Notes under the pieces: generated by a model
Seen by the model: only the letters and a program-made list of their open reading frames with translations
Told to the model about the DNA's origin: nothing
The model's database searches: none
Assembly: GCA_945915475.1 (NCBI GenBank)
Contig: CAMEFI010000020.1
Location: forward strand, 1-62,037
DNA length: 62,037 nucleotides
Source: an uncultured Clostridium sp.
GTDB lineage: Bacteria > Bacillota > Clostridia > Lachnospirales > Lachnospiraceae
Reading direction: 5' to 3'
Shown: positions 21,205-39,757 of the stretch, piece by piece
Layout of the letters: the number at the start of each line of letters is the position of its first letter
Position numbering within the stretch: the stretch's first letter is position 1
Position numbers and translations under genes: made by a program

Positions 21205-21213
21205 CCGCCCTCT
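21190..21213 (+). terminator. Terminator hairpin at the dnaB stop codon
   Basis: GGGCGGC (21190-21196), loop AATCATA containing the TAG stop, GCCGCCC (21204-21210), then TCTT. A GC-rich 7-bp stem with a weak U-tract, so termination may be partial and the helicase gene downstream may receive read-through. Confidence 0.6.
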
Positions 21214-21240
21214 TATCGTATTGCTGGGATGGAGATTGGA

Positions 21241-24200: not shown

Positions 24201-24717
24201 GGATTCGGCAAAACTTACCACCTGCATGGAAGTGATAGAAAATGCCATAGAAGGCGGACACAGGATATTACTGTTTTCGCAGTTCACGACGATGTTAGAC
24301 CGCATTGCCAGGGAATTAAAGAAAAGAGATATCGGGTATTTCATGCTGACCGGAGCCACCAGCAAACAAAAACGACGGGAGCTTGTGGAACGGTTTCAAC
24401 AGGGGCAGGCCGGTATCTTCCTGATTTCCTTAAAGGCCGGGGGAACAGGACTGAATCTCACTGCGGCAGATATGGTGATCCACTATGATCCATGGTGGAA
24501 TATTGCCGCACAGAACCAGGCCACGGACCGGACGCACCGCATTGGACAGGAAAACCGGGTCACTGTTTTTAAACTTATTGCAAAGGATACAATAGAGGAA
24601 CGAATTCTTAAACTGCAGGAGAGTAAGAAAGATCTTGCAGATAAAATTCTGTCGGCAGAGGGGGTTAGCCTATCTGGTTTGACCATTGAGGAGATGGAGG
24701 AACTGCTTGGGATGTAA
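21241..24717 (+). CDS. SWIM-domain SNF2 family DEAD-like helicase
   Basis: 1158 residues. A SWIM zinc finger (CDCKAF, then CKH) lies near 80-95, a long helicase-associated middle region follows, and the C-terminal third is an SNF2 ATPase. ADDMGLGKT is near 722, DEAQ box near 818, LTGTPIENRLSELWSIFDYLMPG follows, and helicase C motifs are FSQFTTMLDRI and GGTGLNLTAAD, then RTHRIGQ. Such bacterial Swi2/Snf2 proteins translocate on DNA and are linked to transcription recycling or repair. ATG 21241 has GGAGATTGGA upstream; ATG 21229 is the alternative. Its 3' end overlaps the convergent ABC ATPase gene by 53 bases. Confidence 0.92.
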   Translation: MSLIDEKAIKKECTIPVTYGRGKSLYEEDNVLTLLMKKISSDTLQMIAEVEGSHGDTMYHTTVKLERGEQMRQLRIREGSCDCKAFVQYSGFCKHLVATLLETNFCVDMEEVDELLSHGSVGETVNITQENYGEGDRYLNPLLESGLLQKGMPQVTPLPASSSGKTFSYTPPVWSQQESSRELMDAISGMVLKERNRFCQEMAGGDVKLEVTLHLDVDEEYIELRIGKSQMYVVKDIYEMIEHIRNQDNVRYGQKLEFVHTQAAFTKEALNVVSLLLTAPPARGENYLRWYQSSDSRYLNLDNRMLEELLQLYADGSLYVSTCLQYDKRLTAVKKGNPCLPVIISGMPGGQEAEVVFPEILVLEGVHTFAVWWDDCIYLCGEDYCEDMREIVKLMAVNYLQKERSSSNRYSHRFLKENVPLTLCEKDYTAFCSTLLPVLEKWTDVRMEDIELSKYQIEEGQYELYLDLTKDKDVVCEAKAIYGDKEHNLIQMARLTETYRDVRTEYELRSILEMYFLEQTSDQKYYLLRQDDDRLAELVENGVEQLKNYAQVYVSESFKQVRISTKVNISAGLSIKGNLLQVTWDIHGMSRDELSAILTAYRRRKKYYRLRNGELLDLAASGIGTLSDMEEDLHLSKAQLKDGMAEVPLYRALYLNALMKENADQIRITRDEMFARWIGKAETLHNQEYPIPEEVEGTLREYQKEGYQWACALSELGFGGILADDMGLGKTLQMITYLCSKKGMVHLVICPASLVYNWEAEFEHFAPSMRVATVVGTAAERRKLLEQWQYYDVLITSYDLLKRDIDLFVGKNFGCQIIDEAQYIKNPSTQAAKAVKAIQSRNRFALTGTPIENRLSELWSIFDYLMPGYLFRYKYFKETFEQDILEKTDKAGAATERLHKMIAPFLLRRLKKDVLKDLPDKVEKVIYTRFGREQEQLYKAAEKNIVMNLKKNGGGQNPENKIQILAELTRLREICCDPALVYENYKSDSAKLTTCMEVIENAIEGGHRILLFSQFTTMLDRIARELKKRDIGYFMLTGATSKQKRRELVERFQQGQAGIFLISLKAGGTGLNLTAADMVIHYDPWWNIAAQNQATDRTHRIGQENRVTVFKLIAKDTIEERILKLQESKKDLADKILSAEGVSLSGLTIEEMEELLGM

Positions 24718-25339
24718 GAGTCCCGGCATCCATTTCCAGAATTTTATCACAAATTTCTAAATCTTCAGCATAATGGCTTGTCATGAGTATGGTTTTTCCT
24801 TGTTCTTTCAATTCACATAAGAGTTGTTTTACTTGAACAATTCCTTTTTTATCTAAGCCATTCATTGGTTCGTCCAATAAAATAATATCCGGTTTTTCCA
24901 TAATTGCCTGTGCAATTCCGAGTCTCTGACGCATTCCAAGGGAATATTTCCCTACTTTTTTTCTGCTGGTTGGATCTAATCCTACCATTCTTATTGCGTC
25001 AATGATTTCGTTCCGATTAATTCTATTTCTTATCTTTGCAAGGTATTCTAGATTTTGATAAGCCGTATATTGTAATAAAAACCCAGGAGTTTCTATAATG
25101 AGCCCCATACTGTCTGGAAAATCTATATCAACTCCAATTTTTTTGTCCATTACATAAACCTCTCCATGGGAAGGTTTTAGATACCCTGCTATTATTTTTA
25201 ATAGAACTGTTTTCCCAGAGCCATTTTTCCCAATAATACCATAGATATGATTCTCTTCAAATTCAATATTAATATCTTTTAATATTTTTTCTGATTGAAA
25301 CTGTTTACTTACATTCTTAAGCCTAATTGTCTTTTCCAT
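24665..25339 (-). CDS. ABC transporter ATP-binding protein of the agr-linked cluster
   Basis: 224 residues with Walker A GKNGSGKT, signature SLGMRQRLGIAQAI (G in the second position replaced, as in many drug/peptide exporters), Walker B IILLDEPMNGLD and switch His in MTSHYAEDL. It resembles CcmA/BcrA-type ATPases that pair with ABC-2 membrane subunits, which are encoded by the preceding genes. It is the last gene of the minus-strand agr cluster and overlaps the previous gene by 17 bases. The last ~17 residues are read antisense to the end of the helicase gene, so the native C-terminus may have been replaced at the island edge. Confidence 0.85.
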   Translation of the reverse strand: MEKTIRLKNVSKQFQSEKILKDINIEFEENHIYGIIGKNGSGKTVLLKIIAGYLKPSHGEVYVMDKKIGVDIDFPDSMGLIIETPGFLLQYTAYQNLEYLAKIRNRINRNEIIDAIRMVGLDPTSRKKVGKYSLGMRQRLGIAQAIMEKPDIILLDEPMNGLDKKGIVQVKQLLCELKEQGKTILMTSHYAEDLEICDKILEMDAGTLTSQAVPPSPQWSNQIG

Positions 25340-26054
25340 TTATCCAATTCCTTTCTTCTAAATGCCCTTTTTTCCACAATATGGGAATAATAATAAAACA
25401 AAGTATAATTACCAGAAACTCTAGTATGTATGTTATGATTCCATTATATCCATTTTCTGTATGCCAATTGCTTCGTACATACATTCCCGGGACCAACCAC
25501 GGATATTGATAGCAAACTGAAAAAATATACATAACTCCTTCTGCTATAATAAAAAAAGCAATTGTAGAATTTGATTGTAATATCAAATCCAAAACAATAA
25601 TGATTGAGATGATAGATAATAAGTGTAACAGATAATGACAACTCACTTGTGCTTGTTTCCAACATGGGACGTTACTGTTGCCACCATATACCTTCCATAC
25701 AAAAATAGTACAGAAAAAGCAAATGCAGACACTGTTAATAACGCTGAGAAAATAATGAATCCACCATTTTTTAAATTCACCATATCGAAAGATTGAAAGA
25801 ATACTTATCTTTTTATATGTATTGATATTAATAGTTGTTATTATTAGGAAAAACCCAAGTAAAAATAACCATTTTCCCATAGCTAACAAATGTAATTCTT
25901 CCTTTCCTTCAAATTCAATTCCGCTAAGGATAGAATAGATATCATAGTCTCCTGTTTTACTTGACCATTTTTGTATAAAAAAAGCAAATAATAGAGTAAT
26001 TCCAAACATTACATTTCTGTTTCTGTATTGTATTGTATGGTACTTGTATTTCAT
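25323..26054 (-). CDS. Multi-pass membrane protein, probable ABC-2-type transporter subunit
   Basis: 243 residues with about six hydrophobic segments (starting GITLLFAFFIQ; later FLFLGFFLIITTINI-type helices) and few charged residues between them. I recognise no named family; position between a second membrane protein and the ABC ATPase suggests a permease subunit. RBS GAGGAGA precedes the ATG. It starts immediately after the previous gene's stop (adjacent TGA and ATG), indicating coupled translation. Confidence 0.65.
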   Translation of the reverse strand: MKYKYHTIQYRNRNVMFGITLLFAFFIQKWSSKTGDYDIYSILSGIEFEGKEELHLLAMGKWLFLLGFFLIITTININTYKKISILSIFRYGEFKKWWIHYFLSVINSVCICFFCTIFVWKVYGGNSNVPCWKQAQVSCHYLLHLLSIISIIIVLDLILQSNSTIAFFIIAEGVMYIFSVCYQYPWLVPGMYVRSNWHTENGYNGIITYILEFLVIILCFIIIPILWKKGHLEERNWINGKDN

Positions 26055-26900
26055 TCAGCTAGTCTCCTCTCTGCAAGCGTTTGGAACATCAATATAAAAT
26101 ATTATTTTTTGCGATAATTCTGCAAGTATAACAATAGCAATGATAAAAATCAGAAGTGTATTTGAAAAACTTACTAATGCTTTTTTCCCAATCTGTAATA
26201 CTGCGATGGAACGGGCGAGAAGTGAATAATCAATTGTAAATCCCAGACCTTCTTTCATAATCTCGTACCCGACAAAGTGAAAGGCAACTCCGGCTAACGG
26301 ACCTATATGATAGCGTGATACAAGACTGATAACATAGACCACTAGTCCAAGTGTAATTGCATATAGGATTGCAAGTACTAATGAATACAAAAAAACAAAA
26401 AAAATATTTTTTGTATTTACGATTTCTATGTAAGGAAAATCGATATTATAGGAATAATGGCATCCTGAGGCAGTTTTTATAAGTGGATAACTCCATATAT
26501 TTGCTAAATATCCATTCCGAAAGCTTATTAAAACAGTAGAAAACCATAATATACAATAATAAAGAATAGCTTGAACTATAATATAAAGCAGAATTGCAAT
26601 ATTCCAATTCTTACGGGTTGTACGGTGTATTATGCAAAATGACATTGTATCGATGAATGGTGTTGATGATATTACAAGCATCCAGCCTAGTACAAGAAAT
26701 ATAATTGTATTAGGATTATTTACTGCTACAAGAAATGGTTCAAGTACATTTATTGCTTCATGCATTTCTTGTGCATACCGGATATATTCCATAGACTGAT
26801 TTATAATCAGCATGATACCAACCAGATATCCCAACAAAACTCTTTTTGAATGCATTTGTATTCGTAGTTCGTAACAGAAAATATTTATTATTTCATTCAT
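26055..26900 (-). CDS. Multi-pass membrane protein, probable ABC-2-type transporter subunit
   Basis: 281 residues with about six membrane helices (VLLGYLVGIMLIINQS; TIIFLVLGWMLVIS; ILLYIIVQAILYY; FVFLYSLVLAILYAI; LLIFIIAIVIL). The N-terminal cytoplasmic start MNEIINIFCYELRIQMHSKR is typical of ABC-2 permeases. RBS AAGGTGA precedes the ATG, and the gene overlaps the preceding membrane-protein gene by 8 bases. Most likely a subunit of the exporter whose ATPase is encoded two genes on; substrate unknown, perhaps the small secreted protein encoded upstream. Confidence 0.65.
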   Translation of the reverse strand: MNEIINIFCYELRIQMHSKRVLLGYLVGIMLIINQSMEYIRYAQEMHEAINVLEPFLVAVNNPNTIIFLVLGWMLVISSTPFIDTMSFCIIHRTTRKNWNIAILLYIIVQAILYYCILWFSTVLISFRNGYLANIWSYPLIKTASGCHYSYNIDFPYIEIVNTKNIFFVFLYSLVLAILYAITLGLVVYVISLVSRYHIGPLAGVAFHFVGYEIMKEGLGFTIDYSLLARSIAVLQIGKKALVSFSNTLLIFIIAIVILAELSQKIIFYIDVPNACREETS

Positions 26901-27657
26901 GATTCACCTTCTTTTTTAGTCCTAACCAACTTATAAAAATGGATATTCCTATATATATTAGTTCCATAAATGCTGATAAGGGGTAAGAACCCAGATCGTC
27001 CCCACGGAAAAGATAAATGGGATTAATTTCTGGATAGTCATAAAACAGAAACCACATCATTTCATATAGAATAAAAGGTCCAATTACTGTTATATAACGG
27101 TTACAACTCCATACTGCAAAAGCAAAACTCACTAATGCAAATAACATTCCAAATAAAAAACCTAAAAGAACCTTAAAGCCAAGGACAAAGAAATCTCCAT
27201 ATCGTTCGATATAATATACCATTTGTGTTCCTTCCATAAAACCATTTTGTGGAATGCCGTGATATCCTAAAACATAACCTATGATACAAACGCAGAAAAA
27301 TGGAATACCTATCGTGATACCACCTGAAAGCCCCACTGATATCATCCGAATAATTCCATATTTCTTCCAAGTTGTCCTTGATATAATCATTTCAAAATAT
27401 CCACTATTATACTCTTCGCAGAAGCGTATGGAATATCCTAGTGCTGGAAAAATAGCTGCAAATGGTGTAAATCCAGATAATGCCATTGCATTGACAATGT
27501 ACACATATGTACTAGAGACTCTTGGTTCTATATTGGTATAGGTTATGATTCCATGTACTAATATCCCTGTCAACAATATAATAGAAATCCACATCAATTT
27601 TCCTGTAAAAGCTCTCTTTATATCTTGTTTAAAAAAATATGTACTTTTCATTGACAT
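26893..27657 (-). CDS. Multi-pass membrane protein, probable ABC-2-type transporter subunit
   Basis: 254 residues with about six membrane helices and an N-terminal MKSTYFFKQDIKRAFTGK segment of the kind found in ABC-2 permeases. A long outer loop (YEMMWFLFYDYPEINPIYL) ends near the last helix. The start may be ATG 27657 or 27651 (both near AGG). It lies between the lipoprotein and two further membrane-protein genes. Three different membrane subunits with a single ATPase is more than the usual pair for this exporter type. Confidence 0.65.
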   Translation of the reverse strand: MSMKSTYFFKQDIKRAFTGKLMWISIILLTGILVHGIITYTNIEPRVSSTYVYIVNAMALSGFTPFAAIFPALGYSIRFCEEYNSGYFEMIISRTTWKKYGIIRMISVGLSGGITIGIPFFCVCIIGYVLGYHGIPQNGFMEGTQMVYYIERYGDFFVLGFKVLLGFLFGMLFALVSFAFAVWSCNRYITVIGPFILYEMMWFLFYDYPEINPIYLFRGDDLGSYPLSAFMELIYIGISIFISWLGLKKKVNHE

Positions 27658-27676
27658 TCAACCTATCTTAAATCCT

Positions 27677-28828
27677 TTAATTTACGCTAATCAAATCGCC
27701 GCTTTCTCCATCAATAATAATATCTGTTGTAACATTTCCTATAATATCCGAATTTAACAAATATTGTTGCGTGGGAACATATATCCGCCATACCGGTTTT
27801 AATGTATATGTGTCCCAGTTATCTGTTGTAAGCATATACATTAGTTCTGCACGATTAAAAGTCATAGATGAACTGCAGATGATATCTCCATTGTTGACAT
27901 GCTGTTCTAATACATGTATTAATTGTTCCGGGGTAATTACTTTTGTTTTTTTGCTTTCTGCAATATCCCATAGCATATTATCAACCTGTATCATTCCTAC
28001 TCCGCTATTGCCTACTTCTGCATAACCATACGCATTAATTTCGTTGATATCTCCATGAGCCAATCCATTTGCTAAAGGCAGATTCCCAATTTGAATCATG
28101 AAATATATACTGTAAAATATATTGCCGTCGTTGCTAAAACCTTGATAATACTCTGGTTTCAAGTTATCGATGCCCAAAACAGCAAACTTATCTTCCAATT
28201 CTTTCCAAGCCATATTAAATGTGTATTTCTCGGATATGTTTTCTTCTGAAGAAAATTCATAATTATTCCTGGATATCGCCATATATTTGTCATCAAGAGT
28301 TTCGTTACGGAAAAAAAAACTAGAGTCAGAAAAACGGGAAAAGGTAACAGTATTATCTGCATTGGTTACGTGAAAAGCATGATTTATAGAAGTTTTTTTA
28401 AGCATTCCTTCTTCGTTATTGCCGTCATAGGAGTTCTCTTTATTATACGGTTCAATATCATTGACGTCCTGCAGTTGTTCGTCTCCGGCAAAAAAATGTT
28501 TAATAATGGATTGTCTGTCAAATTCTACAGTAGAAGGAATGATACTTAAGATATCTATATCATTATAATTTATATCCGGAAAGTCTGTCTTCAATATTAA
28601 CTTATCATCATTAGAACCTAGATTTACATTACAGGTATATCCATTTTCTGTTTTTATCAAATGTGTAGTTTCTTCCGTGAGGGTGTTATCTTGCTTTGTC
28701 TCTTTTGTTCCGACTGCCTGTTTTATACCGGCATCTGTGGTATTACTTTGTGGAATAGAAGTACATCCTATTAAACTGAGAGTTAAAAATGTGCTTGTTA
28801 ATAGAAATTTTATTCTGTGTTTAAACAT
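27677..28828 (-). CDS. Lipoprotein of unknown function in the agr-linked cluster
   Basis: 383 residues. The signal peptide ends in the lipobox LIGC with lipidated Cys22, so the protein is anchored on the outside of the membrane. The mature part begins with a Ser/Thr/Gln-rich linker, then a beta-rich domain; the end ITTDIIIDGESGDLISVN-like pattern recalls PepSY/regulatory beta-hairpins, but no firm family match was recognised. A perfect AGGAGG ribosome site is 7 bases before the ATG. It stands between the small secreted protein and the three membrane proteins, where immunity, lipid-anchored chaperone or substrate-binding roles are possible. Confidence 0.7.
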   Translation of the reverse strand: MFKHRIKFLLTSTFLTLSLIGCTSIPQSNTTDAGIKQAVGTKETKQDNTLTEETTHLIKTENGYTCNVNLGSNDDKLILKTDFPDINYNDIDILSIIPSTVEFDRQSIIKHFFAGDEQLQDVNDIEPYNKENSYDGNNEEGMLKKTSINHAFHVTNADNTVTFSRFSDSSFFFRNETLDDKYMAISRNNYEFSSEENISEKYTFNMAWKELEDKFAVLGIDNLKPEYYQGFSNDGNIFYSIYFMIQIGNLPLANGLAHGDINEINAYGYAEVGNSGVGMIQVDNMLWDIAESKKTKVITPEQLIHVLEQHVNNGDIICSSSMTFNRAELMYMLTTDNWDTYTLKPVWRIYVPTQQYLLNSDIIGNVTTDIIIDGESGDLISVN

Positions 28829-28883
28829 TTTAAAAGCCTCCTAGTAGCAGACATATAAAATATATGCCTGCCTTTTATGTTTG

Positions 28884-29321
28884 TTAATAAGAAACTTTGT
28901 CTGCATTAAACCATCCTGTAGCTTTAAATGTAGACTGGTAAGAATCGTCCATACGAGCAGCTAATCTGTAATCCGATAAATATGCATCACCTGAAGCATA
29001 TGATACGGTAGTACCTCCTGTCGAATGACGCCAAACAGCACTGTTTGTGCATTTCTTGATAATGGCATTTGTAGAGGAATTATATCTTACAGGACAAAAA
29101 CTAATTCCGTAAGTTCCAGAACAAGTTATACTACTAACGTATATTGTCCAAGGATCGCTTTTTATTGTCTTTTTATTATAAGTATCTGACATTTTGTTAT
29201 ATGCCTGACCTGAATTCGTTAATGAAAAATTGAATCCAGGTTTGCTTGCGGCATAAACAGTTCCTGATAATAATATTGCACTTAATAATACAAATATAGT
29301 AGTTTTTTTAATTTTCTTCAT
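28884..29321 (-). CDS. Small secreted protein, DUF2712-like
   Basis: 145 residues with a clear signal peptide (KK start, hydrophobic 9-20, cleavage expected after VYA, residue 24). The mature ~120 residues are beta-rich, with three cysteines, and end in a pattern (AARMDDSYQSTFKATGWFN) that I recall from DUF2712-type secreted proteins found beside ABC transporters. RBS AGAGGT precedes the ATG. It is the first structural gene after agrDB on the same strand, so it is a good candidate product of the quorum-controlled cluster: bacteriocin-like, matrix or signalling protein. The family assignment is from memory. Confidence 0.65.
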   Translation of the reverse strand: MKKIKKTTIFVLLSAILLSGTVYAASKPGFNFSLTNSGQAYNKMSDTYNKKTIKSDPWTIYVSSITCSGTYGISFCPVRYNSSTNAIIKKCTNSAVWRHSTGGTTVSYASGDAYLSDYRLAARMDDSYQSTFKATGWFNADKVSY

Positions 29322-29456
29322 TTGAAATACCTCTTATCTCATATTTATATTTGTTTTCTGTGTTGAAAATTTTGACTTCTTTTTTATAATACTAATGTTA
29401 TTTGGGGCTTTCTATCATTTCTTGTATTGCGTGATCTAGTTTGACAGAAAGCCTTA

Positions 29457-29480
29457 TTAAATTGGTGGACTATCTTCCAT
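29457..29480 (-). other. Seven-codon micro-ORF with a perfect Shine-Dalgarno
   Basis: AAAGGAGG (29496-29489) lies exactly 8 bases before an ATG that opens MEDSPPI and stops. An imperfect inverted repeat (GGCTTTCT...AGAAAGCC) follows, then the DUF2712-like gene. It may be a leader peptide that controls the secreted-protein gene, or a leftover ribosome site of a decayed gene. Confidence 0.35.
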
Positions 29481-29524
29481 GTGAATGGCCTCCTTTCTTT
29501 TGAGATTGGAATTATTAGCACCAC

Positions 29525-29566
29525 TTGTCTGTTATGAATACGTTTAGTAGAGAAAATAACAGACAA
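29525..29566. promoter_or_regulatory. 11-bp perfect inverted repeat between agrB and the secreted-protein gene
   Basis: TTGTCTGTTAT (29525-29535) and ATAACAGACAA (29556-29566) are exact inverted copies with a 20-bp spacer. No T-run follows on either strand, so a protein-binding site fits better than a terminator. ATTGTC followed by GTT also occurs in the agrD promoter region. Confidence 0.45.
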
Positions 29567-29615
29567 TACAGTGTAATGAACGTGTATTGATATAATGAAG
29601 ATGATGATTCTAATC

Positions 29616-30191
29616 TTAAAATTTATTAATACATTGACTAATAATGCAGGGCAATTGTAAGATTGCTGATAAAATAATGCCAATAGAAAGGCATTTGGAA
29701 ATATTTACATAATGTAACAAGTACATAAATAGAATTATCATTGAAAGAACAAAAAGAATTCGATGAACATATCTTTGATATAATACTTTTTCTTTTTGTG
29801 TTAATGGGTGATTTACATGTTCAATCGGGCTAAATATTGATAATGTTAATATGCTAACAAAGGTTACAATTAGTAAGGATCTTTCGTTTGTAATGTGTTG
29901 TGAGCAGTAGATGCAGCTTATTAACAAGATGCTTGAAAAAGTAAAGCATGTCCATGCATGTTCTGTATGATATCCTCCGCTGAATTTTCGAATAATCATG
30001 AAGGGTAGAATAATCCATACACTTTCTATGATACAACCGAAGAATGTTCCATAAGCAATGGCTAAAAAAATTGGGGATATCGTTAATAATACAATATAGA
30101 TTGCATATTGATATAAGTCTCTATCTTGTTCTTCGATTCCATTATTTTTAATCAGCAAATCTGTAAGAAAATCTGCACATTTGGAAATCAT
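29616..30191 (-). CDS. agrB: Accessory gene regulator B (AgrB), peptide-processing membrane endopeptidase
   Basis: 191 residues, the usual AgrB length. RKFSGGYHTEHAWTC carries the catalytic pair His75 and Cys82 with the seven-residue spacing of the family. Several membrane helices follow. AgrB cuts the C-terminal tail of the AgrD precursor and forms the thiolactone ring at the membrane. The start codon overlaps the agrD stop by four bases (ATGA), so the two are translationally coupled. It is the second gene of the minus-strand cluster. Confidence 0.92.
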   Translation of the reverse strand: MISKCADFLTDLLIKNNGIEEQDRDLYQYAIYIVLLTISPIFLAIAYGTFFGCIIESVWIILPFMIIRKFSGGYHTEHAWTCFTFSSILLISCIYCSQHITNERSLLIVTFVSILTLSIFSPIEHVNHPLTQKEKVLYQRYVHRILFVLSMIILFMYLLHYVNISKCLSIGIILSAILQLPCIISQCINKF

Positions 30192-30337
30192 TTATTTTTC
30201 TTATAACGATCTAAACCTGTAGGAGCCTTTGGCTGGTAGGCGATCATACAGGATGTGGAATTAGCATCTGCTTTTATAGCGGATTCTAATAATTTAGCCA
30301 TACTTTTAGCTATATAATTTGTTTTTTTCTTTTCCAT
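30188..30337 (-). CDS. agrD: AgrD-type cyclic lactone autoinducer precursor peptide
   Basis: 49 residues. The first ~24 form an amphipathic lysine-rich helix (IAKSMAKLLESAIKA), as in AgrD leaders. The core STSCMIAY follows, and the tail QPKAPTGL is the conserved C-terminal recognition region. AgrB should cut after Tyr34 and link it to Cys30, giving a five-residue thiolactone C-M-I-A-Y with an exocyclic N-terminal tail. This start has AAAGGAG 7 bases upstream; a longer frame to 30370 is unlikely. The processed peptide should be sensed by the divergently encoded kinase at 31240. Confidence 0.88.
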   Translation of the reverse strand: MEKKKTNYIAKSMAKLLESAIKADANSTSCMIAYQPKAPTGLDRYKKNK

Positions 30338-30430
30338 AGAGAACTCCTTTCTGATATGAGAAACCATCATCTTCCCTATAACGTCACTTTACCAAATTAA
30401 ATGTAAAATACAAGTACTTGGGAATGAAAC

Positions 30431-30450
30431 GACAATTTTTGACACTTTTT
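30431..30450. promoter_or_regulatory. Tandem 10-bp repeats between agrD and the LytTR regulator
   Basis: GACAATTTTT and GACACTTTTT follow each other directly, one helical turn apart. They lie between the divergent agrD and regulator promoters, where an AgrA-like LytTR protein is expected to bind. A weak minus-strand promoter for agrD may use TTGTCG (near 30434-30429) with a long spacer, fitting activator dependence. Confidence 0.4.
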
Positions 30451-30466
30451 GGTATCTTTTATAATC

Positions 30467-30495
30467 TTGTCAGGCAATTTCATAAAGACTATAAT
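30467..30495 (+). promoter_or_regulatory. Promoter of the agr-type regulator and kinase genes
   Basis: TTGTCA (30467-30472), a 17-bp spacer and TATAAT (30490-30495). The start lies about 20 bases before the AGGAG ribosome site of the response regulator gene. This strong promoter faces away from agrD. Confidence 0.7.
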
Positions 30496-30523
30496 AAGTA
30501 AAAATGATGAAGGAGAATAACAA

Positions 30524-31231
30524 GTGAAATTTGCGGTTTGCGATGATGACAAGTTTGCTTACGAACAATTAGAAGAATATATTTTTGAATTTTTTGGTAC
30601 GCGTCATTTGAAAAAACCTGAAATGGAATATTTTCAAGACGGAGAGTCTCTATTATGCAGTGGAATAGATATGGATGTTTTATTTCTTGATATTGAAATG
30701 CCCGGAGTGGATGGTATCTTTATTGGGAATGAATTAAAAAGAAGAAATCCGGAGTTAATCATTCTTGTAATATCGGCTTATCCGGAATATTTGGATGATG
30801 CCATGAGGTTTCATGTTTTTCGCTATCTGACTAAACCGCTGGAAGAGCAGCGTCTGTATCGAAATTTAGAAGATGTGTTAACGGCATTGTCTTCTGCTTG
30901 CATGAAGGTCGCAATTGAAACAAAACAGAGGACATATACTGTCAGCACTTCTGAAATTATATATATAGAAGCACAAGGAAAAAAAGTATATATACAAACG
31001 GCAACAACAAAATATGAATCTACACGTACCATTCAAACATGGTTAGAAATACTTCCGCACACACTCTTTTTTCAGACGCATCGGAGTTATATTGTGAATT
31101 TACAACATGTGTGTAATTTTGACCATACATTGGTATATCTTGCAAACAATACATTTCAAGCTTATCTGACTAGAAGACATTATAAAGAATTTAAAGAAGC
31201 ATATCTTATTTTTTTGGAAAGCGCGAGGTGA
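30524..31231 (+). CDS. AgrA-like response regulator with LytTR DNA-binding domain
   Basis: 235 residues. An N-terminal receiver has the acidic pocket CDDD (residues 7-9), phospho-Asp56 (LFLDIEMPG) and the conserved Lys in YLTKPL. A C-terminal LytTR domain (about 130-230) carries the family pattern EIIYIEAQGKKVYI, then FFQTHRSYIVNL. The start is GTG with AGGAG 8 bases upstream. It overlaps the kinase region by a few bases and is divergent from agrD, the classical split layout of an autoinducing-peptide circuit. Expected to activate agrDB and probably the transporter cluster. Confidence 0.92.
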   Translation: MKFAVCDDDKFAYEQLEEYIFEFFGTRHLKKPEMEYFQDGESLLCSGIDMDVLFLDIEMPGVDGIFIGNELKRRNPELIILVISAYPEYLDDAMRFHVFRYLTKPLEEQRLYRNLEDVLTALSSACMKVAIETKQRTYTVSTSEIIYIEAQGKKVYIQTATTKYESTRTIQTWLEILPHTLFFQTHRSYIVNLQHVCNFDHTLVYLANNTFQAYLTRRHYKEFKEAYLIFLESAR

Positions 31232-31239
31232 TTGAACTT

Positions 31240-32550
31240 ATGGGCACAATCTGTTGTTATTTTCTTATTTTTGTTGCAGAGGCATGGATCCTTCGACAAT
31301 ATACGGCTACGATATTTAAAAGACGACAAACGATATCGATTGACATCTGTGTTTTGCTTTTTTTATATAGTATTTTGTTTGCTTGTTCTTTTCTGGAAAT
31401 ATTCTGGCTTAATACAATGATGTTTTTCGTATGTAACAGTATTTATATTCACTATATATATGACATTTCATATAGCCAGACGATTTTTCATGCAGTCCTT
31501 ATTACGGTAATTATGTGTATGTGTGAATTATTGGTTTCGGGTTTTATTTCCCGTATAACACCAAATTTCTATGCAAATGCAACTACAACACGTAATCTTT
31601 TTCTTTTGGCGATTTTCAGTAAATTGTTATATTCCCTGTTTTTATATCTGTTGGCACGAATTATAGCAGATACCGAAACAAAGAACACAGTATATCAAAA
31701 ATCAAGTATTTTTCTCTTATGTGTGCCCGTGTCCTCGATTATTGTGACATTGACAATTATTAAAATGTGTGAAGAGGAATCTATTTCAAAGACCATGAAT
31801 TATATGATAATTTTGTGTGCATTTTTACAATTGTGTACGAATCTGCTGGTTTTTGGAATTCATCAGTATAATCAGGGAAAAGCAATGGAGTATACAAATT
31901 TACAGTTGATGCTACAAAAAGAGACATCGTCTTCTGAATATTATAGACAGATGTTGAAGGTAAATGAGAATCATAATATTTTGATTCATGATATAACCAA
32001 ACATCTGAATGCTATTGCAATACTAAATGAAAAAAATGAAAGAGAAAAAATAAAAGCATACATAAATCAATTGTTTGCATCTTCTGATCTGAAAAAAAGA
32101 AACCGGTTAAGTGATAATCCGTTATTAAATATAATTCTCAATCAATATCAAGCAATTTGTGAGGAGAAACATATTACCTTTTTGGCGGATATTCGAAGCG
32201 AAGTTTTAAAATTTGTAACAGATAACGACTTGATAACGATATTTTGCAATTTGCTTGACAATGCTGTAGAGGCAAGCTGGACTATACCGAATGCAATAAT
32301 AGAATGTAGTGTGTTTCGCAGAGAAAATACAGCATTTACCGTAATCATGATTGTTAATTCCTGTCGATGTAATCCCATTAAGGGAAACCATGAATTGGTA
32401 ACAAAGAAAGAGAATAAATATGTACATGGTTTTGGAATGAAAAGTATCGAACGAGCAATTAAGGAGTATGATGGAGAAATGACATACTATTATGATGACA
32501 ACAAGTATGATTTTCATACAGTCATTACGCTTAAATGTCCGTTAGATTGA
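31240..32550 (+). CDS. AgrC-like sensor histidine kinase (GHKL ATPase)
   Basis: 436 residues. About six membrane helices occupy residues 1-200, as in peptide-sensing HPK10 kinases. The phosphoacceptor His is in LIHDITKHLNAI (His250). The ATPase domain has N-box CNLLDNAVEAS and G-box HGFGMKSIERAI. ATG 31240 was chosen because GAGGTGA lies 8 bases before it; GTG 31228 is the in-frame alternative. Expected to bind the AgrD-derived thiolactone outside and phosphorylate the LytTR regulator encoded just upstream. Confidence 0.9.
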   Translation: MGTICCYFLIFVAEAWILRQYTATIFKRRQTISIDICVLLFLYSILFACSFLEIFWLNTMMFFVCNSIYIHYIYDISYSQTIFHAVLITVIMCMCELLVSGFISRITPNFYANATTTRNLFLLAIFSKLLYSLFLYLLARIIADTETKNTVYQKSSIFLLCVPVSSIIVTLTIIKMCEEESISKTMNYMIILCAFLQLCTNLLVFGIHQYNQGKAMEYTNLQLMLQKETSSSEYYRQMLKVNENHNILIHDITKHLNAIAILNEKNEREKIKAYINQLFASSDLKKRNRLSDNPLLNIILNQYQAICEEKHITFLADIRSEVLKFVTDNDLITIFCNLLDNAVEASWTIPNAIIECSVFRRENTAFTVIMIVNSCRCNPIKGNHELVTKKENKYVHGFGMKSIERAIKEYDGEMTYYYDDNKYDFHTVITLKCPLD

Positions 32551-32564
32551 TAATGGACTGAAAC

Positions 32565-32608
32565 TTGCATTTGGGGTATCAGATATGCTATGATTTTGCA
32601 TATGATAC
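32565..32608 (+). promoter_or_regulatory. Promoter and imperfect palindrome upstream of the CysK-like gene
   Basis: TTGCAT (32565-32570), an 18-bp spacer and TATGAT (32589-32594). GTATCAGATATGC and GCATATGATAC form an imperfect inverted repeat around the -10, a possible operator. The ribosome site AGAGG precedes the ATG at 32635. Confidence 0.5.
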
Positions 32609-32634
32609 AATAAATAGATAAAAGAGGTAGCAAC

Positions 32635-33564
32635 ATGATTTATGATAATGTATTGGATTGTATGGGACAGACTCCTGTCATCCGGTTGAACAGAATGGCA
32701 GACCCGGAAGGGGCGGAGGTGCTGGTCAAATTTGAAGGATTGAATGTGGGTGGTTCCATCAAGACAAGAACGGCCTATTATATGATCAAAAAGGCAGAAA
32801 AGGAAGGAATTATCCATGAGAATACCATTATTGTAGAGCCTACCAGCGGCAACCAGGGAATCGGGCTTGCACTTGTAGGGGCGGTAAAGGGATATCATAC
32901 CATTATTATCATGCCGGATTCCGTCAGTGAGGAACGGCGCAAACTGGTACAGCATTACGGTGCTGAAGTGAAGCTGGTGCATGACGCAGGCAATATCGGG
33001 GCCTGTATCGATGAGTGTATGCAGATTGCCATGAATATGGCAAAGGAGAATCCCAATGTCTATGTGCCACAGCAGTTTGAGAATCCTGCCAATCCTATGG
33101 TGCATAGGCACCACACTGGTCTGGAAATTCTTGAGCAGGTGGCAGGACCCATTGATGGTTTTTGTTCCGGTATTGGTACTGGCGGCACCATTAGTGGTAT
33201 CGGTGAGGTGTTGAAGGCACAGAACCCGGATATTGAAATCTGGGCGGTGGAGCCGGAAAATGCAGCGATTCTGGCAGGAGGAACCGTTGGAACCCATTTA
33301 CAGATGGGAATCGGGGATGGTCTGATTCCGAAGAATCTGAATCAGAATATATATGATGATATTTATGTGGTGACGGACGGGGAGGCAATCCAGACCGCAA
33401 AGGATCTGGCAGCTAAGGAGGGTCTTATGTGTGGAATCAGCAGTGGCACCAATGTTGCAGCCGCCCTAAAGCTTGCTAAGAAATTAGGGAAAGGCAAGAC
33501 TGTTGTCACAGTTCTGCCTGACACTGCGGAAAGATATTTCTCTACGCCGCTGTTTGAGGAGTGA
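32635..33564 (+). CDS. CysK-like PLP-dependent cysteine synthase family protein
   Basis: 309 residues, the normal size. The PLP lysine lies in GGSIKTR (Lys43). The substrate loop is TSGNQG (70-75), the PLP phosphate loop is SGIGTGGTISG, and PDTAERYFST is near the end. The family makes cysteine from O-acetylserine and sulfide. Typical CysK has GGSVKDR, TSGNTG and PDTGERY; the changes at T/Q and D/T suggest a subfamily with perhaps another substrate. It is followed by an Lrp-type regulator, which may control it. Confidence 0.82.
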   Translation: MIYDNVLDCMGQTPVIRLNRMADPEGAEVLVKFEGLNVGGSIKTRTAYYMIKKAEKEGIIHENTIIVEPTSGNQGIGLALVGAVKGYHTIIIMPDSVSEERRKLVQHYGAEVKLVHDAGNIGACIDECMQIAMNMAKENPNVYVPQQFENPANPMVHRHHTGLEILEQVAGPIDGFCSGIGTGGTISGIGEVLKAQNPDIEIWAVEPENAAILAGGTVGTHLQMGIGDGLIPKNLNQNIYDDIYVVTDGEAIQTAKDLAAKEGLMCGISSGTNVAAALKLAKKLGKGKTVVTVLPDTAERYFSTPLFEE

Positions 33565-33597
33565 AACTTATTGCAATCATCAATTGAGGAAAAGGAT

Positions 33598-34029
33598 ATG
33601 GATCGGTTAGATTATGATATTTTAGAATGTTTGAGGGAAAATGGAAGAGAGAAAGCTTCGATTATCAGCGAAAAGGTAAATCTTTCCGTATCGGCTGTGT
33701 CGGAACGGATTCGCAAGTTAGAACAGCAGGGGGTTATTCAGGGCTATACGGTGCTGACGGACCGGAAACAGTTAGGGATGGGAATGATTGCCATTATGGA
33801 GGTTCGCCTGGAGCATCCCAAATATTATGATGGATTTACCAAAATGGTGGCAGAGACGGAGGAGATAGCATCCTGCTATTATCTGACAGGAGATTTTGAT
33901 TTCGTGTTGAAAATCTATGCGGCAGATTCGGATCATCTTGAGACGATTCATCGAAAGATTAAGAGTATGAAAGGTGTGGGGAATACAAGAACGCATATCA
34001 CACTGAAGACAGTGAAGGAGGAACGTTAG
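33598..34029 (+). CDS. Lrp/AsnC family transcriptional regulator
   Basis: 143 residues. The N-terminal HTH begins MDRLDYDILECLRENGR and continues with SVSAVSERIRKLEQQGVI. The C-terminal ligand-binding RAM domain follows (MIAIMEVRLEHPKYY, then YYLTGDFDFVLKIYA). ATG 33598 fits the family's usual start and has GAGGAAAAGG upstream; a TTG at 33571 also has a ribosome site. Such regulators respond to amino acids. Its place just after the CysK-like gene suggests it regulates amino-acid or cysteine metabolism. Confidence 0.9.
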   Translation: MDRLDYDILECLRENGREKASIISEKVNLSVSAVSERIRKLEQQGVIQGYTVLTDRKQLGMGMIAIMEVRLEHPKYYDGFTKMVAETEEIASCYYLTGDFDFVLKIYAADSDHLETIHRKIKSMKGVGNTRTHITLKTVKEER

Positions 34030-34135
34030 GGAAAAGAGATATTTTGCGTGAATACAGTTATGAAAAGCTTAAAAGGAAAATAATTTTGATATTTACAAGA
34101 TATATCAAAAAAATTACGGAAAATTGAATAATCTA

Positions 34136-34164
34136 TTTACATTATTTTTGCGTAGGTCTATAAT
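34136..34164 (+). promoter_or_regulatory. Promoter immediately upstream of a strong terminator
   Basis: TTTACA (34136-34141), a 17-bp spacer and a perfect TATAAT (34159-34164). The transcript would start near 34171 and meet a strong terminator only about 11 bases later (34182-34236). Most RNA would be about 65 nt. Confidence 0.7.
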
Positions 34165-34181
34165 TCAAGAAAATTAATAAA

Positions 34182-34236
34182 GAACCATTCGACAAAGGGG
34201 TCATTCAGCTCCTTTTGTCGGGTGGTTCTTTTTTTA
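34182..34236 (+). terminator. Strong intrinsic terminator or leader attenuator
   Basis: GAACCATTCGACAAAGG pairs with CCTTTTGTCGGGTGGTTC (minor mismatches) across a short loop, followed by TTTTTTT. It belongs to the short leader upstream of the D-amino-acid operon, separated from it by the MITE-like element. Confidence 0.8.
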
Positions 34237-34245
34237 CTCTATAGG

Positions 34246-34477
34246 ATTAGGGCATCAAAAGCCCATGTTGAATTTGTGACCTGACACAATGCACGAGAAA
34301 AGATTGTTTGCATTCCATTGCGCTAACCGTTCCGATGAGCCTCTAATCGCAAAATTGTGTTCAGCATAGGCTTCCACGATTTTCAGAGTCTCATCTACAC
34401 AGCGCAAAAGTCATTTAAACAATCTTTTTGTGCAATACGCCGTTAAATTTTTGAACATGGGCTTTTGACACCCTAAT
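34246..34477. mobile_element. MITE-like element with 24-bp terminal inverted repeats
   Basis: A 232-bp non-coding element. Its ends are ATTAGGGCATCAAAAG at left and, read inverted, ATTAGGGTGTCAAAAG at right, both continuing into CCCATGTT: 24 bp with two differences. Weaker inverted homology runs about 75 bp inward (AAAAGATTGTTT, ATTGCGCT), so the whole can fold into a long hairpin. The direct repeat CTCTATAGG(AT) flanks it at 34237-34247 and 34478-34488, consistent with a 9-bp target duplication. It sits between a leader/terminator and the start of the D-amino-acid operon. Confidence 0.7.
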
Positions 34478-34510
34478 CTCTATAGGATGAAAAGAATGGA
34501 GGACGAGAGT

Positions 34511-35350
34511 ATGGAGAATTTAGGATATTACAATGGTGAGTATGATTTGATTGAGAACATGAAGATTCCAATGAATGACCGGGTAAGTTATTTTGGTGAC
34601 GGTGTGTATGATGCTACCTATAGTCACAATCATATCATTTATGCCCTGGACGAGCATCTTGACCGGTTCTTTAACAGTGCAGGACTTCTGCAGCTGGAGA
34701 TTCCGTATACAAAGGCGGAATTAGGAGAAATTCTTCAGGAAATGGTAAAGAAAGTGGATAGTGGTGACCAGTTTGTATACTGGCAGCTTACCAGAGGAAC
34801 AGCACCGAGAAAGCATGCATTTCCGAAGGAGGGAAAGGCAAATCTCTGGATTACATTAACACCTTGTCCGGTGACGGACACCTATAAAAAGATTAAGCTG
34901 ATCACCTGTGAGGATACCCGTTTTCTGCACTGTAACATTAAGACATTGAATCTGCTTCCAAGTGTTATGGCGGCGCAGAAGACAGAAGAGGCCGGTTGTG
35001 ATGAAGCCGTATTCCACAGGGGAGATACCGTAACGGAATGTGCCCACAGTAATGTACATATCATTAAGGATGGTATCTTTAAAACCCATCCCACAGACCA
35101 CTATATTCTTCCGGGTATTGCAAGAGCACATCTTGTAAAGACCTGTAAGGCATTGGGAATCCCGGTAGATGAAACACCATTTACCGTGGCAGAGTTGATG
35201 GATGCAGATGAGGTGATTGTATCTTCTTCCGGTTCTTTCTGTTTAGCAGCAACAGAGGTGGATGGAGTGCCGGTTGGTGGCAAGGCACCGGAGCTGCTTC
35301 GGAAGATTCAGGATGCACTGGTTGCGGATTTCGAAGAAAAGACACGTTAG
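34511..35350 (+). CDS. D-amino-acid transaminase (class IV aminotransferase)
   Basis: 279 residues, the length of D-amino-acid transaminases. It begins with YYNGEYDLIENMKIPMNDR and the FGDGVYDATY pattern, and the PLP lysine is Lys144 in NIKTLNLLPS. The Asn/Ser-Xaa-His phosphate region AHSNVHII follows. It should move amino groups between D-amino acids and 2-oxoglutarate, giving D-glutamate. ATG 34511 has GGAGG 8 bases before it; ATG 34487 lies in the flank of the MITE-like element and is unlikely. It is first of six genes, and D-glutamate is the likely link to the next enzymes. A branched-chain or aminodeoxychorismate activity is less likely. Confidence 0.85.
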   Translation: MENLGYYNGEYDLIENMKIPMNDRVSYFGDGVYDATYSHNHIIYALDEHLDRFFNSAGLLQLEIPYTKAELGEILQEMVKKVDSGDQFVYWQLTRGTAPRKHAFPKEGKANLWITLTPCPVTDTYKKIKLITCEDTRFLHCNIKTLNLLPSVMAAQKTEEAGCDEAVFHRGDTVTECAHSNVHIIKDGIFKTHPTDHYILPGIARAHLVKTCKALGIPVDETPFTVAELMDADEVIVSSSGSFCLAATEVDGVPVGGKAPELLRKIQDALVADFEEKTR

Positions 35351-35362
35351 GAGATGATAAGG

Positions 35363-36439
35363 ATGACACAGGAAGAACTGACCATTGAGAATATTGGACA
35401 GGATTTAGATGATCTGATGAATCTGGATCCGAGAGGATACGGGGTGTGCAGGATTCTATACAAGGCATCCCGTGCATATATGAAAGAACCTCTTACCACA
35501 AAATGTGCAAAGGTGTTGATGGATACGGTTGAAGAAGGGGATGTGGTGTATATTCTTACGGGTTTTGTGTTGCTGCCATTTAAGAAGGCGGAGATGGACG
35601 GAATTGTGAGTGCCATGTTTTTGGCACGGTGTCTGGTGAAAGCATTTGGTGCCAAACCTGTTGTCATCTGTCCGGAAGACAATATGGAGGCGGTGAAAAA
35701 GCTTTCGGAGGTAATGGGACTTCATTTATATGATTCCATCGAGGATATACTCAATATGCCAATCTCTATGGCTGCCATTTCCTTTACAAAAGATGTGGAA
35801 ATGGCGCAGAAGCAGGCAGACGAACTGATTGCAATTGCGAAACCGGCAGCGGTGGTCAGTATTGAGGCACCGGGACCAAATGCGAAAGGGATTTACCATA
35901 ATGCAACGGGACTGGATGTAACGGAAATTGAAGCAAAAACGGATGTGCTGTTTCAGAAATTGCGGGAAATGGGAGTGCTTAATATAGCCATTGGAGATCT
36001 TGGAAATGAGATTGGAATGGGAACCATACGGGAGCATATTCAAAAATATGTACCTTACGCAGAACCGGGAGGATGCCAGTGTGGATGTGAAGGTGGAATC
36101 GCAACTGCATCTGAGGCAGATTATATCTTGACGGCAACGACATCGGATTGGGGATGTTATGGGTTAATGGCAGCAATTGCATTCCTAAAGGAGGATGTGG
36201 ATGTTTTTCAGGATCCGGATTTGCAGGAATATGCCATGAAGGAAGCTGCAAAAGCAGGCATGATTGATATGTACGGCTGGATGATACCCGCAATCGATGG
36301 TTTTGGAATCGAGATCAACCGGTCCATCGTCAGTATGATGCGGGAATGCATTTCCTATGCATTGAAATTAAAAGAAACCTGCAAACATCATTTTGTGCGG
36401 GTTCTTAATAAGCATTTTTATGATGACATGACAGCATAG
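35363..36439 (+). CDS. DUF4392 protein, C-terminal half homologue of D-glutamate cyclase
   Basis: 358 residues matching DUF4392, the family of the C-terminal domain of vertebrate D-glutamate cyclase (DGLUCY), which turns D-glutamate into 5-oxo-D-proline. Visible patterns are YILTGFVLLPF near 65, SIEAPGPNAKGIYHNATG near 170, and GIGDLGNEIGMG-like and GGCQCGCEGG loops near 220-250. ATG 35363 has AGGAG at a 9-base distance; ATG 35354 is too close. It sits between the transaminase and the 5-oxoprolinase genes. I infer a cytoplasmic cyclase step; pairing with the DUF1445 protein is inferred, not shown. Confidence 0.8.
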   Translation: MTQEELTIENIGQDLDDLMNLDPRGYGVCRILYKASRAYMKEPLTTKCAKVLMDTVEEGDVVYILTGFVLLPFKKAEMDGIVSAMFLARCLVKAFGAKPVVICPEDNMEAVKKLSEVMGLHLYDSIEDILNMPISMAAISFTKDVEMAQKQADELIAIAKPAAVVSIEAPGPNAKGIYHNATGLDVTEIEAKTDVLFQKLREMGVLNIAIGDLGNEIGMGTIREHIQKYVPYAEPGGCQCGCEGGIATASEADYILTATTSDWGCYGLMAAIAFLKEDVDVFQDPDLQEYAMKEAAKAGMIDMYGWMIPAIDGFGIEINRSIVSMMRECISYALKLKETCKHHFVRVLNKHFYDDMTA

Positions 36440-36456
36440 TATACAGGTGAGCTTCA

Positions 36457-36476
36457 CAGGTGTTTCGCAAATGCCT
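36457..36476 (-). repeat. Copy of the dispersed TTGCGAAAC motif
   Basis: CAGGTGTTTCGCAAATGCCT, which read on the minus strand gives AGGCATTTGCGAAACACCTG, matches the window consensus. It lies in the 68-base gap between the DUF4392 gene and pxpB. Confidence 0.5.
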
Positions 36477-36507
36477 GAGTAGAGATTCAGGAAAGAAGGT
36501 GAGTCGG

Positions 36508-37233
36508 ATGAGGGGATATCGTTTTTTAAGAAATGGAGATAAAGCAATTACCATGGAGTTGGGAAATACCGTAAATGAGGGAGTGAACCGTCAGGTGACT
36601 GCGATTTGCAGTGAAATGATGCAGCAGCAGGTAGCGGGAATTGTGGATCTGATACCCACATTCAGGTCTCTTACAGTGTGCTTTGAGCCGGGGATGATCC
36701 GGGAGTGGAAAGTGAAGTCAATGCTTAAGAAGGCATATCGGAAGAGTAGCAGTGAAGGTACGGGAACGCATCGGGTTGTGTGTATTCCGGTTTGTTACGG
36801 GAAAGAGTATGGACCGGATCTTGCAGAGGTTGCAGCCTATCATAACATGACAGAGGAAGAGATTGTCCGGCTGCATTGTGGCAGGGATTATCTTATTTAT
36901 ATGTTGGGATTTTTGCCGGGATTTCCGTATCTTGGAGGTATGGATGAGAAGCTGACCACACCGAGACTGGATAGCCCGAGAGTACTTATCGAGCCGGGCA
37001 GTGTGGGAATTGGCGGCGGGCAGACAGGCATTTATCCCATGGCCTCGCCGGGGGGGTGGCGGTTAATTGGCCGGACGCCGGTACGACTATATGATTCTAA
37101 TAAAGAGGATAGTGTTCCCTATGAGGCAGGGGATTATATCCGGTTTGTGCCTGTTACGCAGGCGCAGTATCGGGAGATTGAACAAGAGATAGAGGCGGGT
37201 ACGTATAAGCTTCTAATCGAGGAAGGCAGGTGA
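36508..37233 (+). CDS. pxpB: 5-oxoprolinase subunit PxpB (KipI family)
   Basis: 241 residues of the KipI/carboxyltransferase subunit C-D family. The patterns VDLIPTFRSLTVCFEP and YMLGFLPGFPYLGGMDEKL, then GSVGIGGGQTGIYPMASPGGW are characteristic. With PxpC and PxpA it hydrolyses 5-oxoproline to glutamate using ATP. The frame is open from 36460, but ATG 36508 has AAGAAGGTGA upstream and fits the family's N-terminus. Confidence 0.92.
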   Translation: MRGYRFLRNGDKAITMELGNTVNEGVNRQVTAICSEMMQQQVAGIVDLIPTFRSLTVCFEPGMIREWKVKSMLKKAYRKSSSEGTGTHRVVCIPVCYGKEYGPDLAEVAAYHNMTEEEIVRLHCGRDYLIYMLGFLPGFPYLGGMDEKLTTPRLDSPRVLIEPGSVGIGGGQTGIYPMASPGGWRLIGRTPVRLYDSNKEDSVPYEAGDYIRFVPVTQAQYREIEQEIEAGTYKLLIEEGR

Positions 37234-37237
37234 TTCC

Positions 37238-38137
37238 ATGAAAATGAAGATACTGTCAGCAGGACCTCTTACCACGATTCAGGATAAGGGACGATTTGGA
37301 TATATGCGGTATGGAATTACAACATCCGGTGTGTTGGATGATAAAGCATATGCCTATGGAAATGCGTTGCTTGGTAATCAGTCAGATGAGGCATGTCTGG
37401 AAATGACCGTAAAGGGTGCTGCGATTTCCTTTGAAGGAAGTGGTGCCGTTGCCATTGTGGGTGCAGACATGCTCCCGAAGATGAATGGAAATCCCATATC
37501 AGCGAATATTCGCATAGAAGTAAAGGATGGTGATTTGCTGGAGTTTGGATTTGCCACAAAAGGATTGCGCACGTATCTGTGCGTAGAAGGCGGGATTGAT
37601 GTACCTCTTGTGTATGGCAGCCGATCTACGAATCTGAAATGTGGATTTGGTGGATTTCGGGGGCGGAAATTAGCAGATGGTGATGTGTTGGTAACGTATC
37701 CGGTGACAGAATACAGACGTAGGGCAGAATTCTTACCGGAGGAATATCATGTGCCGGAGGGTGAGGACATGACGGTGCATGTTGTGTTAGGTCCCCAGGA
37801 TAATATGTTTACGGCAAAGGGAATCCAGACATTTCTGTGTGCCACCTATAAGGTGACGCCGGAATCAGACCGAATGGGAATCCGGCTTTTGGGAGAGCCG
37901 TTAGAAGGAGTAAATGGTATGGATATCATTTCGGATGCCATTCCATTAGGAAGTATACAGGTGTCGGCAAGTGGTCAGCCGATTATTCTGTTAGCAGACC
38001 GGCAGACCACGGGTGGATATGCCAAGATTGCAACGGTAATCAGCACAGACATCTGGAAACTGGCACAGGCAAGGCCGGGGACAAGGCTTCATTTTGAGGC
38101 GGTAACGGTAAGAAATTGGAAGGAAAGAAGGCGGTAA
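37238..38137 (+). CDS. pxpC: 5-oxoprolinase subunit PxpC (KipA, biotin-dependent carboxyltransferase family)
   Basis: 299 residues of the KipA/biotin-dependent carboxyltransferase-like family. Family marks are LSAGPLTTIQDKGRFGYMRYGI, NALLGN, VGADM and SDAIPLGSIQVSASGQPIILL. It forms the 5-oxoprolinase complex with PxpB. The gene starts 4 bases after pxpB and ends one base before the DUF1445 gene. All expected motifs are present and the length is normal. Confidence 0.92.
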   Translation: MKMKILSAGPLTTIQDKGRFGYMRYGITTSGVLDDKAYAYGNALLGNQSDEACLEMTVKGAAISFEGSGAVAIVGADMLPKMNGNPISANIRIEVKDGDLLEFGFATKGLRTYLCVEGGIDVPLVYGSRSTNLKCGFGGFRGRKLADGDVLVTYPVTEYRRRAEFLPEEYHVPEGEDMTVHVVLGPQDNMFTAKGIQTFLCATYKVTPESDRMGIRLLGEPLEGVNGMDIISDAIPLGSIQVSASGQPIILLADRQTTGGYAKIATVISTDIWKLAQARPGTRLHFEAVTVRNWKERRR

Positions 38138-38138
38138 T

Positions 38139-38909: not shown

Positions 38910-38927
38910 GCGGAAGGAGAGAGGGTT

Positions 38928-39683: not shown

Positions 39684-39712
39684 TTGATTTCCCTTATTTG
39701 GCAGTGTATAAT
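39684..39712 (+). promoter_or_regulatory. Promoter of the zinc-ribbon protein gene
   Basis: TTGATT (39684-39689), a 17-bp spacer and TATAAT (39707-39712), directly after the pxpA stop codon. The zinc-ribbon gene is therefore expressed independently of the pxp operon. Confidence 0.7.
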
Positions 39713-39757
39713 TACTCTTATATATGGTTACAAAAGATGATTAAGGAGAAGTGAACA

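Follow-up and report, generated by a model that had tools for sequence, protein, structure and literature searches.

The question raised by this locus is what an agr-type peptide quorum-sensing system controls in an uncultured Clostridium sp. of the Lachnospiraceae. In general, little is known about what the agr systems of gut commensals control. The window, by which we mean the whole analysed stretch of 62,037 nucleotides (contig C20 of a host genome of 3.09 Mb in 81 contigs), contains the agr genes together with a cassette encoding a small protein, SP, whose N-terminus resembles a signal peptide, as well as a lipoprotein (LP), three membrane proteins (P1, P2 and P3) and the ATPase of an ATP-binding cassette (ABC) transporter (Table 1). 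The agr part of the locus is secure at the level of sequence. What deserves attention is the cassette, whose genes the original prediction had mentioned only as the probable targets of the system. Agr and cassette are best explained as one horizontally acquired quorum-sensing island, and the analysis suggests that crowding turns on a secreted, possibly antibacterial product.

The four agr parts had been described from the sequence as an AgrB with a catalytic His75/Cys82 pair, a coupled AgrD precursor, a LytTR response regulator and an HPK10-like GHKL kinase, and profile searches bore this out for all four, at the right coordinates. Family scores and gene order together rule out chance. His75 and Cys82 of AgrB are located within RKFSGGYHTEHAWTC, and the closest named relative of the protein is that of Lachnospiraceae bacterium IMSAGC_011 (50% identity over the best segment), which makes a Lachnospiraceae host likely. 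The agrD gene overlaps agrB by 4 bases; its open frame reaches 30370, while the preferred start is the ATG at 30337, which has a ribosome-binding site and gives 49 residues up to the stop at 30188, and the 60-residue frame matches TIGR04223 at 34.3 bits against a cut-off of 19. The core of AgrD reads ...DANSTSC-MIAY-QPKAPTGL..., and the signal is likely a five-residue thiolactone, C-M-I-A-Y, in which the putative ring would be closed on the cysteine. A five-residue ring closed on cysteine is found in most signals tabulated in the relevant passages of PMC12312760, and the closest of those tabulated, ANST[CPWII] of Clostridioides difficile agrD1B1, resembles ANSTS-C-MIAY of the window. The response regulator carries Asp56, and the kinase, for which ATG 31240 is an alternative start, contains the H, N and G boxes (HDITKH at 254, NLLDNAVEA at 341 and GFGMKS at 401) and six hydrophobic segments in its N-terminal half according to a simple hydropathy count.

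The locus had also been singled out for its divergent layout. The agrDB genes on the minus strand and the regulator-kinase unit on the plus strand do face away from each other, but among clostridial agr systems there is nothing unusual in this. Since separate agrBD and agrCA operons have already been described for clostridia, for example in C. acetobutylicum (passages of PMC12312760), the divergence is not the notable point. In the window the kinase and regulator are present and divergent, and those passages on clostridial agr do not mention the cassette. Compared with staphylococcal agr as outlined in the same source, the locus shares the AgrB His/Cys pair, an AgrD with a predicted five-residue ring, a polytopic GHKL kinase and a LytTR regulator, whereas the agrDB order, the separate diverging regulator-kinase unit and the adjacent SP-LP-ABC cassette set it apart. 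Rfam gave no match in 24000-33600 at expectation values (E) up to 1, and hence no RNAIII or other known RNA was found there.

The connection between agr and the cassette was examined in other genomes. Of the 397 family genomes, 102 carry a relative of P1, mostly without agr. A search for agrB in 36 of these 102 P1-bearing genomes gave 44 matches in 18 of the 36, and under an assumption of uniform placement, with P1 places taken among the matches listed, nine of the 44 were positioned within 6 kb of P1, compared with 0.38 expected. When the own genome was left out, seven of 40 agrB remained within 6 kb of a listed P1 (0.35 expected, Poisson p 9e-8); the corresponding figures were two of 40 at a limit of 3 kb (0.17 expected, p 0.014) and seven of 40 at 10 kb (0.58 expected, p 3e-6). 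The own genome contains four agrB genes, two of which adjoin an SP-LP-ABC cassette, one in the window and one at locus L011.

We then compared pairwise distances among nine loci, eight of which have a full regulator (L005 has none); L006 and L085, which hold agrB fragments, and L127 were left out. AgrB distances agree with those of the regulator (r 0.85, p 0.001, n=8) and P1 distances with those of the ATPase (r 0.63, p 0.002, n=9), whereas no clear agreement was seen in these small samples between AgrB and P1 (r 0.23, p 0.08, n=9) or between regulator and P1 (r -0.03, p 0.49, n=8). Some pairs may serve as examples. Between the window and L013, identity is 54% for P1 and 62% for the ATPase, yet no more than 17% for AgrB and 25% for the regulator. 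L061 and L062 are likewise closer in the cassette (P1 41%, ATPase 61%) than in AgrB (16%), and L061 and L101 show the opposite, with AgrB at 41% and the regulator at 55% against 20% for P1. The window and L005, by contrast, agree in both halves (AgrB 47%, P1 57%), with 60% identity in the L005 ATPase. The lack of clear agreement between AgrB and P1 suggests that agr modules and cassettes have changed partners and that the pairing was probably made more than once. Repeated pairing in turn favours a working link over mere shared descent, with a common mobile platform as a rival that we weigh below.

The cassette keeps a steady order of SP, LP, P1, P2, sometimes P3, and ATPase, but the surrounding agr genes vary. 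In the window agrDB stands with the cassette and the regulator lies on the other strand; L005 has the same arrangement with an XRE-like gene in between, and in L085 kinase and regulator face away from an agrB fragment and the cassette. L100 runs in one direction as regulator-kinase-agrD-agrB-SP-LP-P1-P2-ATPase, with SP only 5 bases after agrB, and L127 likewise as regulator-kinase-agrB-SP-P1-P2-ATPase, with LP not recognised. In L062 agrDB faces away from a kinase-regulator-SP-cassette unit, in L084 agrB-regulator-kinase faces away from AgrD-SP-cassette, in L101 AgrD immediately precedes SP, and in L061 an AgrD-like gene precedes LP. In L102, from the same genus, the regulator, the kinase and an XRE-like gene diverge from agrDB, and no cassette was recognised on the short contig. 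The AgrD-like genes of these loci were picked by eye. Because the order of agr genes varies among loci, the divergent layout is one of several. The original prediction had placed the probable targets at 24665-29321, on the same strand as agrDB, and the occurrence of such cassettes beside agr in several relatives, among them L100 with its single run of genes, speaks for it. Taken at the level of gene linkage, a regulatory connection from agr to the cassette is supported.

Some features of these loci deserve mention in their own right. The regulator frame opposite agrDB in L005 (180-443) ends after 87 residues near the contig end and may be broken or misassembled. In the AgrD-like peptide of L061 (11759-11920) a serine occupies the position of the ring cysteine, so that the ring would be a lactone. 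A gene resembling bile-salt (choloylglycine) hydrolases stands between agrB and the SP cassette of L013 (6966-7946, genome G268). Among cassettes without agr, that of L014 (7108-8851) adjoins genes resembling BlaI-type repressors and M56-type membrane peptidases, L122, L123 and L124 have at least three tandem LP-like genes (some of those in L122 fall below the profile limit), and L123 and L124 carry an extracytoplasmic-function-sigma-factor-like gene and a partner upstream of the cassette.

The guanine-plus-cytosine (GC) content of the island, 31.9%, is lower than that of either flank (44.3% for 18000-24650 to its left, 45.1% for 32635-40000 to its right). A sister species, genome G397 (L095), has the site without the island and without the neighbouring cysteine-synthase-like gene. 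Of 26 genomes in the genus, this one has the left-hand gene most similar to that of the window (80%), and about 100 bases after that gene stands the regulator that is found at 33.6 kb in the window. The flanking genes, named by eye, are an SNF2-type helicase, an Lrp-type regulator and the cysteine-synthase-like enzyme.

Table 1. Features of the agr locus and its cassette, with positions in the window.
Feature	Position	Strand	Basis
Low-GC island	24718..32550		GC 31.9%; flanks about 45%
ABC transporter ATPase	24665..25339	-	PF00005, 97.5 bits; best NCBIfam match galliderm_ABC (TIGR03740), below cut-off
P3, third membrane protein	25323..26054	-	Not recognised in some relatives
P2, ABC permease-like membrane protein	26055..26900	-	Cassette position and relatives; no curated family match
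P1, ABC permease-like membrane protein	26893..27657	-	Cassette position and relatives; no curated family match
LP, lipoprotein	27677..28828	-	Lipobox LIGC (by eye); YycH/YycI-like predicted fold
SP, small protein of 145 residues	28884..29321	-	N-terminus resembling a signal peptide; nothing matched in Pfam or NCBIfam (E up to 1)
Inverted repeat before SP	29406..29453		Arms of 12 nt (92%)
Inverted repeat between agrB and SP	29525..29566		Arms of 11 nt
agrB, membrane endopeptidase	29616..30191	-	PF04647, E 8e-38, 130.1 bits (cut-off 23); His75 and Cys82
agrD, autoinducer precursor of 49 residues	30188..30337	-	TIGR04223; start picked by ribosome-binding site
Predicted sigma-A-like promoter before regulator	30467..30495	+	TTGTCA-17-TATAAT; consensus match only, 11/12
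LytTR response regulator (AgrA-like)	30524..31231	+	GTG start; LytTR PF04397, 76.4 bits; Response_reg PF00072, 48.4 bits
GHKL histidine kinase (AgrC/HPK10-like)	31228..32550	+	PF14501 (HATPase_c_5), 74.2 bits (cut-off 22)

As to the identity of SP, relatives of the window protein are present in L005, L013 and L014, and SP was found in only three of the 397 family genomes, including the own genome. Ten SP-like relatives gave weak family matches, the best being DUF2712 for the protein of L073 (0.0072, below cut-off). In the cassettes, the SP slot is filled by several groups of secreted proteins that have no detectable relation to each other and stand before the same kind of transporter. DUF2712 (PF10916) proteins are similar in being small secreted proteins in the same slot of some relatives, and the SP of L101 scores over the cut-off; as an identity for the window SP this family was rejected, with no match, a profile comparison of 1.8% and no place in the own genome. 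The Lactococcin 972 family was likewise rejected, as SP matched nothing in Pfam or NCBIfam up to an E of 1. A profile of SP against PDB sequences reached a best E of 0.22, and PLSDB plasmids contained no relative of SP or P1. As to LP, comparison of its predicted structure with the PDB points to a YycH/YycI fold; 5coz and YycH/YycI are on top among the matches listed, and a NisI/SpaI-type fold might lie beyond that list. LP matches no YycH/YycI sequence family in Pfam or NCBIfam. It shares the predicted fold with the YycH/YycI regulators of WalK but differs from them in this lack of a family match, in its lipobox and in adjoining agr and ABC genes.

We propose that agr switches on a secreted bacteriocin-like SP together with lipoprotein/ABC self-protection, a reading for and against which we see the chances as evenly balanced. 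AgrB, whose family and catalytic residues are evident, would cut AgrD, and the five-residue thiolactone would leave the cell. At high density it would bind the GHKL kinase, and the LytTR regulator would then be phosphorylated, as expected of these families. The regulator would activate agrDB and the same-strand SP-LP-ABC genes, a step backed by the repeated linkage in relatives. SP would exit by its signal peptide and may act on competitors as an unmodified bacteriocin-like protein, while LP and the ABC transporter would shield the producer, by analogy with NisI and NisFEG for nisin. The self-protection reading is proposed because the ATPase best matches a lantibiotic-protection family (TIGR03740) and because a lipoprotein with an ABC transporter is the plan of NisI/NisFEG, the self-protection against nisin, and of SpaI/SpaFEG (passages of PMC8538875). 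Passages of PMC11352710 raise the possibility that a Lachnospiraceae strain uses cyclic-lactone autoinducers to control bacteriocins. Among the open-licence literature matches listed, we found no account of the cassette with agr, which is no proof of its being unpublished, and no paper using the word DUF2712.

Several results weigh against this proposal. The window differs from lantibiotic self-protection in that its ATPase scores 172.1 bits against TIGR03740, under the cut-off of 309.75, its permeases match no such family (no LanE/LanG at E up to 0.01 among 12 P1 and 12 P2/P3 sequences), and the fold predicted for LP is one known from kinase regulators (YycH/YycI; passages of PMC8399564). The island's ten genes include none for a lanthipeptide. 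For SP, no bacteriocin family was matched (Pfam and NCBIfam, E up to 1, with ten relatives weak), and its structure model is too poor for a fold search (predicted local distance difference test score 40.4). SP is separated from agrB by 294 bases in the window, so that separate transcription is possible. The linkage itself also has weak points, since the seven linked agrB come from just four genomes (three from G268, two from G025 and one each from G067 and G264), one of them (G264:C41) is a fragment, and the 6-kb limit was chosen after the places were known. Furthermore, when we examined the 40 regions of top P1 rank with purpose-built profiles, leaving out the window, L011, L013, L014 and G358:C111 (a contig end), P1, P2 and ATPase were recognised together in 34 and LP in 15, and 12 held a LytTR-type regulator accompanied by a GHKL-type kinase, whereas AgrB was recognised in four and not in the other 36. 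Nor was it recognised in any of six further regions of the genus (L121-L126); the genus sample comprised seven of the 34 P1 places listed, and its seventh member, L127, chosen partly for a known nearby agrB, was kept outside the 46. Across these 46 regions, in which SP was judged by eye (L121 by profile only, and with a 59-residue frame of L060 counted), agrB was found in two of six regions with SP and two of 40 without, a co-occurrence that is not significant (Fisher p 0.077).

A binding site for the regulator likewise was not established by a direct-repeat test before agrD and SP. Agr systems are expected to have paired LytTR binding sites, at a characteristic spacing, before agr and the target genes. 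Searching for direct repeats of 9-mers at 20-23 bp spacing before agrD and SP gave none that was significant, and as repeats of equal quality arose in 116 of 200 shuffles in the first case and in 174 of 200 in the second, no regulator site is claimed. The promoter pair proposed between the divergent halves remains a prediction; one 11/12 sigma-A-like site leads into the regulator, but sigma-A-like sites in 24500-32700 (45) are no more numerous than in shuffles (mean 48.4). Other elements in the region include a 10-bp tandem at 30431-30450 and the two inverted repeats of Table 1 (29406-29566), which flank a frame of seven codons, MEDSPPI, that is preceded by a strong ribosome-binding site and may be a leader or a gene remnant. 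In L011, on contig C23 of the own genome, the promoter region from which agrB-RR-HK and the second SP-LP-ABC cassette diverge holds a palindrome (9209-9298) whose arms are 30 bases long or more, and the arm matches nowhere else in this genome at up to 3 mismatches.

The main rival explanation accepts that agr controls the cassette but sees in it an envelope-sensing unit, in which an LP of YycH/YycI fold would tune either a membrane kinase or the ABC complex, with SP as its secreted ligand or a surface protein and not a toxin. We regard it as possible but doubtful, for the shared fold of LP shows no function, and LP identity of only 25-27% where SP and P1 reach 53-57% fits a fast-changing partner rather than a fixed kinase regulator. 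Agr and cassette could instead be mere passengers of one mobile low-GC island with no regulatory link. The low GC content with the island-free site of G397, the outcome of the direct-repeat test and the lack of a clear match between AgrB and P1 histories are all in keeping with such passengers, but linkage above the uniform expectation in several unrelated pairings and gene orders and the pairing repeated at L011 argue against them, and we consider this account unlikely.

A further alternative makes the ABC transporter the exporter of the AgrD peptide or of SP, so that the cassette would be the secretion arm of the signal and not its target. AgrD-like genes, by eye, stand directly before SP in L084 and L101 and before LP in L061, as this would have it, but the N-terminus of SP itself resembles a signal peptide, agrB is not recognised beside most cassettes, and to our knowledge known agr systems release AgrB-type signals without a dedicated ABC transporter. 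We give this alternative very little credence.

Returning to the proposal of a secreted SP with self-protection, we tentatively suggest a wider picture for Lachnospiraceae-type bacteria, in which a modular, exchanged island of quorum-gated antagonism would couple agr systems of diverse descent repeatedly to a variable SP and to a YycH/YycI-fold lipoprotein and an ABC transporter that would confer specific self-protection. If this is true, SP would represent a new kind of unmodified protein bacteriocin, and those cassettes that lack SP or agr would serve other regulators as orphan resistance units. Should SP prove antibacterial, its family would be one missed by the bacteriocin profiles searched here. 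A cassette that is repeatedly paired with unrelated agr modules would offer a direct, testable candidate for the output of agr.

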